DNA from: Clostridia bacterium
GTDB lineage: Bacteria > Bacillota > Clostridia > Christensenellales > Borkfalkiaceae
Length of the DNA: 44,985 bases
NCBI GenBank assembly: GCA_029060985.1
Contig: JAIDSX010000028.1
Location: forward strand, 1-44,985
Direction of reading: 5' to 3'
Notes under the pieces: model-generated
Database searches by the model: none
What the model saw: only the letters and a program-made list of their open reading frames with translations
What the model was told of the DNA's origin: nothing
In this document: positions 1,061-6,399 of the stretch, in pieces
How the letters are laid out: every line of letters begins with the position of its first letter
How positions within the stretch are numbered: the stretch's first letter is position 1
Made by a program: the position numbers and the translations under genes

Positions 1061-1127
1061 AAGTAAAGAAATTCGTCATTTTACTTTCATAAAAGAAAAA
1101 ATATTACAAACAAATGTTCGAAAACTA

Positions 1128-1155
1128 TTGACATATGTAAAATCTGTGATATAAT
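1128..1155 (+). promoter_or_regulatory. Strong sigma70-type promoter with extended -10
   Basis: TTGACA (1128-1133), 16-nt spacer, TGA-TATAAT (-10 at 1150-1155). Confidence 0.85.
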
Positions 1156-1161
1156 TAAGTT

Positions 1162-1540
1162 GTACGGCATAGGTCGTATTTTGCCCTTCGAATAAGGGTA
1201 GGTGTCTGCGGTGGGCGTGCGTGGAATTGCTCATAAAGCGCGGAAGATTTTGGGCGAATATTCGCCCAGCCTTAGCTTGCGATTTTGACGCGAGATTTTT
1301 TAGCGTACAAAAAAATTGCGAGCCGTGATAGGCATTTATTGTCGTACAGTTTTTACGGCAATATCAATGTGCAGCCGGAGTTATCCGAGATTCCTATGAG
1401 GATGCGAAAGTCGGATAGTGTAGAGGGTTTATTTTGTTGTACAAAAATTTCATAGGATGGCTAACCACCATAGAGCAATTAAAAATTGCTAAATACGGTT
1501 AAAGTCGGTGACTACGTTAAAAGTATCAGCGACTTTTTTG
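1162..1540 (+). ncRNA. Candidate structured RNA / 5' leader of the mobilization operon
   Basis: ORF-free transcribed interval with many hairpins: CCCTT/AAGGG 1184-1198; perfect 16-nt palindrome GGGCGAATATTCGCCC 1252-1267; GCTTGCGATTTT/AAAATTGCGAGC 1275-1286/1312-1323; TTGTCGTA/TACGGCAA ~1339-1361; TATCCGA/TCGGATA 1382-1417; GCAATT/AATTGC ~1475-1489; terminator at 1502-1539. Confidence 0.65.
1502..1540 (+). terminator. Intrinsic terminator closing the structured RNA
   Basis: AAGTCGGTGA (1502-1511) pairs with TCAGCGACTT (1526-1535), one mismatch, followed by a T-run. Confidence 0.75.
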
Positions 1541-1637
1541 TGCTCATTTTTGAAGGAGGTGGTGCGTATGCGCTAATTGGAAAGACTTGCAAGCCGTCTA
1601 TAAATGCTTGCGGTAAATAAAATTTTATGGAGGAATA

Positions 1638-2351
1638 ATGGAAAACGAACAACTGAAACAATTTACTTTTTACGACTTGTATGCCGAATTGATGGAAGTA
1701 CTCAGCGATGAAGAACGCGGTAAATTACTGCGCCGAATGTGCGAGTATATGTTTACGGCCGGAGAGCAGAAAGAGCTTACTGACAAGAAGTTGATCTATC
1801 TTTGGGGCAATATTGTAGACTATCTTGATGCGGACAAGCAAGCGCGGTTAAACGGTAAAATGGTGCGGGCGAGTAATAAAATGCGGCACTTTTCTTTCTA
1901 CCGAAACTTTTACGAAGCGGTGGTGCTTATGGAAGACAAGCAGGCGGGGCAATACATAAAAGCAATTTATAACTTTGCATTGAACAGTATAGAGCCGAGT
2001 AAAATACCTTCGCCCGTGGACTTGTATTACACGCTCGCAAAGCGTAAGTTAGAACTTTCAAAAGTGCGGAGCAGTATTGGAAAGAAGGGCGGCAAAGCAG
2101 AGCGAATACCAGTAACAGCCGAACAAGTAAACGCTATTCAACCGAAAGGTTTAACTTCAATCGGGATGGACGGTTTTCTTAAAAACAACCCGCAAGTGGA
2201 GAACGATATTTACAAATCAAGTCTGCACTTAACGGAAGGAGTAGATTGGACAATGCTTGACTATGAGCTGCCGAATTCTGCGTATAGAGATTGCAAAAGT
2301 CTGCATCAAATTTTAATGCATCGTGAGGAAATAGTATGCGGAAGTTTGTAA
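1638..2351 (+). CDS. DUF6291-like mobile-element protein with two related repeats
   Basis: Two similar segments (FTFYDLYAELMEVLSDEERGKLLRRMCEYMF... and FSFYRNFYEAVVLMEDKQAGQYIKAIYNFAL...); SD ggagga. Confidence 0.65.
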   Translation: MENEQLKQFTFYDLYAELMEVLSDEERGKLLRRMCEYMFTAGEQKELTDKKLIYLWGNIVDYLDADKQARLNGKMVRASNKMRHFSFYRNFYEAVVLMEDKQAGQYIKAIYNFALNSIEPSKIPSPVDLYYTLAKRKLELSKVRSSIGKKGGKAERIPVTAEQVNAIQPKGLTSIGMDGFLKNNPQVENDIYKSSLHLTEGVDWTMLDYELPNSAYRDCKSLHQILMHREEIVCGSL

Positions 2352-2575: not shown

Positions 2576-3931
2576 TTGAGTAAAAGGAGGAAAAATATAG
2601 GAATACAACCGGTAATATTTGATATAGCATACACGCCGTATCGGTTAAAGAAAAACGCAACAGCGGAGGACGTAGCAGAACACGCAAAGAACCGGGCTTT
2701 CTTCGATATGTCGGGCGAGGATAATATCTACAAGTACATAACGACGGAGGGTAAGATTTACGGCGAGGAAGCGAAAAAGTTCACAATGCTCGAATACCTG
2801 CAAAAGAGTACGGGAGTCTTCAACCAAGACGGAATGCTAACGAAAGGACAAGTAAAGAAAATGCGGAAGCGAGCGCAGACGGGTGAAAAGAATTTATGGC
2901 ACGGGTTTATCTCGTTTAATAAAGAGAACTCAAAGCAAATAGATGATCCCGAAAAATGTATCGCGCTCATAAATCAAACCTTTGGACAGTTTTTCAAAGA
3001 CGCGGGTTTCGATTTCGACAATATGGACTTGATGTGCGCGTTGCATTTGGATCGCCCCGAACACTTGCATATTCACTATATGTTTTGGGAAAAGGAGCCG
3101 AAGGTCAAGAACCAACGTGCGGCGGGTTATATCTATCGTAAGAAAGGAAAGATACCGCTTGACGTAATCGACAAAATGACCGAACGATTGAACGCCTATA
3201 CCATTGACGACGACCTTGCAAAGAAGCGGAAAAAGGTAGTGGAAGAATTGACGAGGACAAGCCATGAATATAACGTTGCGCACCTCAACGATATTCTTCG
3301 AAAGATGCTCAAAGAATTAGCCGACGAACTTCCGAAGGACAAGCCGTTGTGGTACGCAAGTAAAGAGATGAAGCCGTACCGTGCAAAGATCGACACGGCG
3401 GTTGAATGGCTCGTCGATTTAGACGAAAAGACACGCGAAGCAGACTACGCTTTCAGACAAGAGTTGCGAAAGAAAGAACAAAAGTTAAAAGGTATTATGG
3501 GCAACTACTACAAGTCGCGTTTGGAGATAGAAACGAGGCAAATGGACGCTGTTCCCAACTTCGTGGACTATCAAGGGTTAAAGACTGTTCATACCATACA
3601 ACAGTTAGAGTGGGACTATCGTAGACGGCTCGGGAATATCGTCTTGAGAAAGGTGCGTGAGATACAGAGAGAAACGTATAAGAGAAATCCACGCAGAAAG
3701 TACAAGACAAACGATAAGAACCTAAAGCGTCGGCTTGCGATCTCATCAAGAAAAGTGCGTGGGATCATGGACGGACTATTCTCGTCGGTGGCGGAATTAT
3801 TTTCGCCTGAGACGGCGAACTATCGCAACCGATTAAAAGAAATAGAGGAGGAAATGCAGGAAGAGCACGAGAAGGAAAATCGTCCACAGGAACAAGCGAA
3901 AGTAAATTCCAAGTGGGATTGGGGAAAATAA
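2576..3931 (+). CDS. Relaxase, MobP/MobL-like family
   Basis: HLDRPEHLHIHYMFWEKEP three-His motif, N-terminal relaxase-like region, basic C-terminus; lies beside the hairpin cluster. TTG is the only listed start. Confidence 0.8.
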   Translation: MSKRRKNIGIQPVIFDIAYTPYRLKKNATAEDVAEHAKNRAFFDMSGEDNIYKYITTEGKIYGEEAKKFTMLEYLQKSTGVFNQDGMLTKGQVKKMRKRAQTGEKNLWHGFISFNKENSKQIDDPEKCIALINQTFGQFFKDAGFDFDNMDLMCALHLDRPEHLHIHYMFWEKEPKVKNQRAAGYIYRKKGKIPLDVIDKMTERLNAYTIDDDLAKKRKKVVEELTRTSHEYNVAHLNDILRKMLKELADELPKDKPLWYASKEMKPYRAKIDTAVEWLVDLDEKTREADYAFRQELRKKEQKLKGIMGNYYKSRLEIETRQMDAVPNFVDYQGLKTVHTIQQLEWDYRRRLGNIVLRKVREIQRETYKRNPRRKYKTNDKNLKRRLAISSRKVRGIMDGLFSSVAELFSPETANYRNRLKEIEEEMQEEHEKENRPQEQAKVNSKWDWGK

Positions 3932-5184: not shown

Positions 5185-6399
5185 GTGAAAGAACAAATTA
5201 ACCAAATACCGAGGGAAGATTCCTTTCAGCAGTTACTTGAAGCAATGAGAACTCAAAACGAGTTATACAAGCAAGTGCTGGCGGGGTTAGGTCCCATGGC
5301 AAAAGAGAGTAATGAAAATCGTCGGAAAGTGCTGAAATTTTCAAGAAAGGAGATTTTACAGATGCCGACGAACTACAGAAACGTTTTTGCGACGAACGAT
5401 ATGATCGTTCATTACCGTTTGAGAAAGGACGGAGTGTACGAGGCAAGATTCCACAGACAGGGAATCGACATAGAGGTTTCGTCCAAAGACCTAACAAAAC
5501 TCAAACAAAAATTTATCGAAAAACTGAATAACAAGGACTTTTGTCCGAGGAAAAAACGCGATCCGAACGAAAAGACGTTTGCACAGTACGCCGCCGAGTG
5601 GCTCAATATCAAGAGGGTAACGACTAAGGAATCTACCTACAAAGAATACGTGCGAATGTTAAACCGTGACGTGTTGCCCGTATTCGGCAAGAAGAGCGCA
5701 ACCGAGATTGACAGAAGCATGTTGCAGAACTATTTGCTTACTTACGTCGATAGGGGTACGCTGCGAATGGCGCACAAGCTGTTCCTACTGCTTAGGTGCA
5801 TCTTCGACATGATTGCGGAGGATTACAACATTCCCACGCCTATGAAGAAGGTGGTCGTGCCCAATTACGAAAGCAAGAAGGGCGAGGCGTTCACTTACGA
5901 GGAAGAAAAGAAGCTTGTCGAGCATTGCCTTGCAAACCTTCAAAAAGACACTTCTCACGCCTTTCTCGTACTTTTGTACGCAGGACTCAGGAGAAGCGAG
6001 CTTGCAAGTCTAAACGTCATTGACGGAACGTGGTTAGAGTGCGAAACGAGCAAAGAGCGAATGGGTAAGAACGTAGTCAAGCGCAAAATCCCGTTCACGC
6101 CCATGATGAAGCGCATGCTGCCGTATATCGACTTTGAAAAGGCGAAGCGCGTAAACCTGAGTTCCTTGCACACGGCGATGAAGCGGTTATTCCCCGAACA
6201 CCACTCGCACGAGCTAAGACACACGTTCATTAGCAGGTGCAAGGAGAGCGGCGTTTTGAGCGAAGTTGTGAGCATTTGGGCGGGACACTCGTTGGGCGGA
6301 ACGATCACGACCACCGTTTACACGCATTACTCGGACGAATTTCACTTAAAGGAAGCGGAAAAGGTAGACTATCTGCAATGGGATTTTGGGAATGAATAA
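5185..6399 (+). CDS. int: Tyrosine recombinase / site-specific integrase
   Basis: Catalytic R (YAGLRRSELASL), HELRHTFISR, WAGHSLGGTITTTVYTHYS; GTG start with aagga upstream. Confidence 0.95.
   Translation: MKEQINQIPREDSFQQLLEAMRTQNELYKQVLAGLGPMAKESNENRRKVLKFSRKEILQMPTNYRNVFATNDMIVHYRLRKDGVYEARFHRQGIDIEVSSKDLTKLKQKFIEKLNNKDFCPRKKRDPNEKTFAQYAAEWLNIKRVTTKESTYKEYVRMLNRDVLPVFGKKSATEIDRSMLQNYLLTYVDRGTLRMAHKLFLLLRCIFDMIAEDYNIPTPMKKVVVPNYESKKGEAFTYEEEKKLVEHCLANLQKDTSHAFLVLLYAGLRRSELASLNVIDGTWLECETSKERMGKNVVKRKIPFTPMMKRMLPYIDFEKAKRVNLSSLHTAMKRLFPEHHSHELRHTFISRCKESGVLSEVVSIWAGHSLGGTITTTVYTHYSDEFHLKEAEKVDYLQWDFGNE

Follow-up and report, generated by a model that had tools for sequence, protein, structure and literature searches.

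What is the hairpin-rich stretch of DNA that precedes the mobilization genes of a small integrated element in a member of the Borkfalkiaceae, and does it act on those genes? Small mobilizable elements commonly carry genes between gut bacteria and, to our knowledge, little is known about how the production of their relaxases is timed. The window, that is, the whole 44,985-nt stretch analysed here (GCA_029060985.1, contig JAIDSX010000028.1), presents in 5' to 3' order a LexA-type operator, a promoter, the hairpin-rich RNA interval, a terminator, a DUF6291 gene and a MobL gene (Table 1), the DUF6291 ORF starting about 100 nt 3' of the terminator. The same element also encodes a resolvase (103-714) and a TnpV-like protein, and its tyrosine integrase (5185-6399) adjoins tRNA-Gln. 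A first inspection of the DNA letters (the sequence-only reading) had assigned positions 1128-1576 to this unit. The promoter does start at 1128, but the RNA proper spans approximately 1162-1539, and position 1576 takes in a Met-Arg-stop mini-ORF belonging to the downstream module.

Table 1. Features of the mobilization leader and adjoining genes in the window.
Feature	Position	Strand	Basis
LexA-type operator CAAACAAATGTTCG, palindrome just 5' of the -35 box	1107-1120	.	9/10 fixed LexA positions
Sigma-70-type promoter TTGACA-16-TATAAT, extended -10 (TGATATAAT)	1128-1155	+	12/12 hexamer matches; kept in most homologs
Structured RNA, ~380 nt (inferred ends)	1162-1539	+	Fold z = -3.8; homologs; conserved structure
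Hairpin P4, 16-nt palindrome GGGCGAATATTCGCCC	1252-1267	+	3 pairs with two-sided changes, 21 homologs
Hairpin domain P5	1269-1333	+	3 pairs with two-sided changes
Hairpin P6, recurrent loop motif TACAGTTTTT	1338-1363	+	Motif enriched in family
Optional module P7, holds GAAAGTCG	1372-1420	+	Only some A-type homologs have P7
Conserved 3' core	1449-1501	+	Alignment A1 (42 sequences)
Intrinsic terminator AAGTCGGTGA...TCAGCGACTTTTTT	1502-1539	+	Present in all core homologs; p = 0.98
Shine-Dalgarno and Met-Arg-stop mini-ORF (ATG CGC TAA, 1568-1576)	1553-1576	+	M-X-stop ORFs in RNA-less MobL relatives
DUF6291 protein	1638-2351	+	PF19808, E = 8e-15
MobL-family relaxase	2576-3931	+	PF18555, E = 7e-16

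The promoter (TTGACA at 1128-1133, a 16-nt spacer and TGATATAAT at 1147-1155) is as strong as had been supposed, with every hexamer position matched and the extended -10 present, and it ranks best of 13 promoter-like sites in the 5 kb scanned. Overlooked in the earlier description was the operator next to it, which was scored against the Bacillus LexA consensus, CGAAC-N4-GTTCG (PMC4551915). The host's own lexA gene is preceded by GGAACATTTGTTTG, whose core is the reverse complement of the operator core, and this same core is found at the same place upstream of lexA in most relatives checked. Throughout the RNA family, 33 of 59 promoter regions contain the core AACAWWWGTT, as compared with 4% of random windows. 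The presence at the promoter of a box matching that of the host lexA gene suggests that transcription of the RNA is under LexA (SOS) control. Several copies have a divergently oriented gene for an XRE-type repressor upstream of the RNA promoter.

The predicted fold of the interval has a free energy of -125.3 kcal/mol (z = -3.8), and none of 100 shuffled sequences was as stable; the early impression of a segment rich in hairpins, the P4 palindrome among them, is borne out. In the 3' core, the CTAACC loop of a first hairpin (ATGG/CCAT, 1457-1471) can pair with GGTTA (1497-1501), and a second hairpin is found at 1474-1490. Compensatory changes occur in these conserved helices, as in a structured RNA: in the core alignment (A1), 96.6% of the cells are paired, six pairs show two-sided changes and 10 cells carry compensatory changes, against 2.1 in shuffled alignments. 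At the top of the first hairpin, for example, a G-C pair gives way to A-U and to U-A. The corresponding figures for P4-P5 (alignment A3) are six pairs and 13 cells against 4.4 in shuffled alignments, this alignment having been fitted to the model and hence being biased towards structure. Column shuffling yielded z scores of -4.8 for the core, -4.6 for P4-P5, -5.5 for A-type and -7.9 for B-type alignments. In 37 of 38 sequences (19/20 of A type, 18/18 of B type), the more stable fold is that of the plus strand; at paired sites, G-U is far more frequent than A-C. The 5' part is modular, extending over approximately 280-440 nt in the A type, to which the window belongs, and 410-650 nt in the B type, and its modules vary and swap between A, B, C and D types. 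A loop motif, TAC[ACT]NTTTT, is repeated in the hairpins (25 occurrences observed versus 1.4 expected in the A type; 50 versus 1.6 in the B type). Two B-type RNAs (L053 and L098) contain palindromic inserts of about 80-90 nt, located in the apical loops of two different hairpins and recalling the insertion of a small repeat element at sites where the fold can accommodate one. The interval contains no long ORF, in agreement with the sequence-only reading, and no ORF conserved within the RNA was found when its two longest plus-strand ORFs (1285-1455 and 1221-1328) were checked across homologs; in most of these, both are disrupted by stop codons and by frame-changing length differences.

The blastn search suggested at the outset recovered a family, with the covariation just described. 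Of 301 Borkfalkiaceae genomes, 54 gave matches; the closest relative is homologous from the -35 hexamer as far as some 10 nt beyond the terminator, with the last 100 nt or so the most conserved. In all, 61 distinct copies were collected, nearly all from a single bacterial order, with up to five copies per genome. The 3' core pattern was found at 42 loci of a one-genome-per-species collection, nearly all labelled Clostridia, the few other labels corresponding to binned metagenome contigs. Of the 396 genomes of the order searched, 21 contain a match to a covariance model built from the core; in a class-wide sample, the sole match outside the order was weak. Copies occur in isolates of Pumilibacter intestinalis, Pumilibacter muris and Anaerocaecibacter muris, and the RNA was not found in phage records, plasmid records or viral contigs. 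No Rfam 15 family matches the interval or its homologs of types A-D at the gathering score, and a search at permissive thresholds returned chance-level matches only, so that the failure to place the segment in a known class by eye has its counterpart in the covariance-model scan. The interval is a real, previously unlisted structured RNA family.

In 45 of the 54 copies with enough flanking sequence, the next gene on the same strand is a mobilization gene. When these contexts were counted by hand, 34 were of the MobV (Mob_Pre) type, eight comprised NikA/MobC with a PF03432 relaxase, and three DUF6291 with MobL or MobV. The nine copies lacking an adjacent mobilization gene include remnants and copies beside recombinases. 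The same leader design is shared by elements with three relaxase families and with integrases of either the serine or the tyrosine type. A motif scan revealed no promoter between the terminator and the mobilization gene: the best score in this interval averages 7.7, versus 8.1 in shuffled sequences, and that of the RNA promoter region is 11.0. Transcription of the mobilization genes is therefore most likely due to read-through from the RNA promoter.

A general link between the RNA and DUF6291-MobL modules was considered and rejected, since 20 MobL loci chosen by their relaxase lack the core. The window sequence resembles MobL relatives from approximately position 1553 onward, and its RNA cassette thus appears to have been joined to a MobL module just past the terminator. 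Judging from these comparisons, the RNA is a separable cassette that is combined with different mobilization modules, an aspect missing from the initial account. Between the DUF6291 and MobL genes lies a 22-nt perfect palindrome, AAATGCAGTTCGAACTGCATTT (2418-2439), occurring once in the window; it may represent the oriT region of MobL. The host genome contains another relaxase gene, of MobV type and decayed, which is accompanied by a MobV-type oriT repeat but not by the RNA core.

The terminator was correctly recognized from the sequence. Its arms, AAGTCG (1502-1507) and CGACTT (1530-1535), are followed by a T-run; a simple scan with a loop limit of 8 nt omits it, the loop being longer. It is predicted to form with a probability of 0.98 in the window and of 0.77-0.99 in 40 of 41 homologs. 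The sequence-only reading had offered a large noncoding RNA or an attenuating leader as alternatives, and both fit the homologs in view of the covariation, the lack of an Rfam match and the position before mobilization genes. The switch it proposed, in which GAAAGTCG (placed at 1406-1413) competes for the CGACTT arm, was rejected: the module that carries it, P7, is absent from many homologs, and the terminator dominates the predicted ensembles. Nor was any conserved antiterminator detected among 41 homologs, in which upstream partners of the terminator arm fall at inconsistent places. Thus, of the features of an attenuator leader, a terminator between promoter and gene with no second promoter seen by motif scan is present, and a conserved antiterminator fold is not.

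Past the terminator, a short ORF ending in Pro-Pro-stop was found 68-83 nt beyond the terminator core in 47 of 58 copies, as compared with 1.2% of random windows; this element, too, had been missed. These ORFs have a Shine-Dalgarno sequence, are mostly 6-10 codons long and often read MTIRPP-stop. The second proline codon can be CCA, CCT or CCG, the arginine codon AGA, CGA or CGC, and all three stop codons are used; such freedom at third positions and at the stop argues for selection on the peptide. A terminal Pro-Pro-stop generally slows the ribosome and would be expected to do so here. Pro-Pro-stop ORFs also close MobV leaders with other RNAs (e.g., MKNYHHYHPP-stop). In the window, a Met-Arg-stop ORF replaces the Pro-Pro-stop ORF typical of MobV loci. 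Mini-ORFs of the Met-X-stop kind (ATG NGC TAA or TGA), some with a clear Shine-Dalgarno sequence, precede DUF6291-MobL at five other loci, and Pro-Pro-stop ORFs (MKVTIRPP, MQTIRPP) do so at two loci without the RNA core. Six further loci carry a Shine-Dalgarno sequence and a start-stop ORF (ATGTAA or ATGTAG) upstream of MobV; these lie mostly between two terminators, and such ORFs occur in 0.065% of random windows.

The reading we favour, with a probability of about one half, is that the RNA is a structured leader, induced by the SOS response and ending in a terminator, which restricts relaxase expression. Operator, promoter, RNA and terminator would form a self-contained unit serving as the 5' leader of the element's mobilization genes. 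Upon DNA damage, LexA would be cleaved and the promoter fire; most transcripts would end at the terminator, releasing an RNA of about 380 nt, and a minority would read through to give the relaxase mRNA, for which motif scanning reveals no other promoter. Read-through might be favoured by a protein, by the tandem U-rich hairpins or by translation. In most relatives this mRNA would then meet the 6-10 codon Pro-Pro-stop ORF, where stalling could act as a second, translational brake, leaving relaxase expression scarce and SOS-dependent. Such a leader is suggested by homology bounded by the -35 hexamer and the terminator, by the position of 45 of 54 copies before mobilization genes that lack a visible promoter, by the conserved structure, by the LexA core at the promoters and by the enrichment of Pro-Pro-stop ORFs. 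Against it stand the absence of an antiterminator, the dominance of the terminator at equilibrium, an RNA more ornate and modular than a simple attenuator requires, the nine copies with no neighbouring mobilization gene and the MobL relatives that manage without the RNA.

Alternatively, the terminated RNA may itself be the product: a noncoding RNA that acts in trans and is required for transfer or regulates it. Its proximity to mobilization genes would then reflect co-transfer, and its U-rich tandem loops and pseudoknotted 3' core would serve to bind a protein, a different RNA or its own copies. This we regard as the main rival, less probable than the leader. The core is conserved beyond the needs of termination, the loop motif recurs and is enriched, the cassette is separable and joined to different mobilization modules, and equilibrium folding favours termination; there is also a precedent in SGI1, the mobilization of which is reported to need a self-encoded sgm-sRNA (PMC9299015). 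However, the mobilization genes have no other visible promoter and would need read-through regardless, the position and orientation of the RNA relative to them are nearly fixed, and a terminator stands between promoter and mobilization gene even in MobV leaders with a different RNA. A bolder version, in which a new ornate RNA class of one order's mobile elements, induced by DNA damage, licenses or times transfer in trans for any relaxase, seems rather unlikely; such action may proceed through the repeated U-rich loops and the conserved 3' core.

Strong default termination, together with 5' modules that vary and are swappable among types, would also suit an insulator that uncouples the mobilization genes from the SOS promoter, the folds merely stabilizing or processing the transcript; we consider this improbable, as it does not explain why the sequences of the core and the loop motif are conserved. 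More improbable still is a function at the DNA level, as an oriT or single-strand origin with hairpins working in single-stranded DNA. Inverted repeats are indeed abundant upstream of the relaxase genes, and such sites are known close to mobilization genes (PMC5090054). Nevertheless, many MobV loci have a separate oriT repeat about 150-300 nt downstream, 3' of the RNA, which resembles the pMV158 site AAGtaTAGTGTG (PMC5863519) and is found in either orientation, whereas that of the RNA is fixed. Moreover, three relaxase families share one RNA unit, folding is better in the plus strand, G-U greatly exceeds A-C, and a promoter and a terminator set the bounds. The downstream repeat in both orientations and the strand-specific folding thus disfavour an origin.

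Some known systems resemble the leader in part. The sgm-sRNA, self-encoded and essential for mobilization of SGI1, is likewise an RNA of an IME mobilization module lying near oriT and mob genes, with a strong promoter and terminator-like control; but it is the processed 3' end of an mRNA, the likeness drawn here being one of description, SGI1 uses MpsAB proteins of tyrosine recombinase type in place of MobV or MobL relaxases, and a multi-hairpin family, LexA operator and Pro-Pro-stop ORF are not reported in the sections available (PMC9299015). Gram-positive leaders with terminator-type attenuators share the arrangement of promoter, structured leader, intrinsic terminator and regulated gene, as well as short upstream ORFs; here, however, no antiterminator was found, the Pro-Pro-stop ORF follows the conserved terminator instead of preceding it, and the leader is modular and 300-560 nt long. 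OLE, ROOL and GOLLD, which come from bacteria or their mobile elements, are likewise long RNAs with several domains and extensive structure (PMC12286853); the present RNA has no Rfam match to them and is tied to the mobilization genes of small elements. MobV modules such as those of pMV158 (MobM) and IMESag-rpsI have a Mob_Pre relaxase with a AAGTATAGTG-type oriT just upstream (PMC5090054), but in pMV158 the mob promoters lie at oriT, and the extracts at hand describe neither a long RNA nor a LexA operator nor a leader with Pro-Pro-stop.

The RNA probably represents a new means of timing the movement of these elements between cells. Its presence in isolated species of Pumilibacter and Anaerocaecibacter may make the leader model testable. 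If true, the model would link DNA damage directly to mobilization and provide a new RNA class to study.
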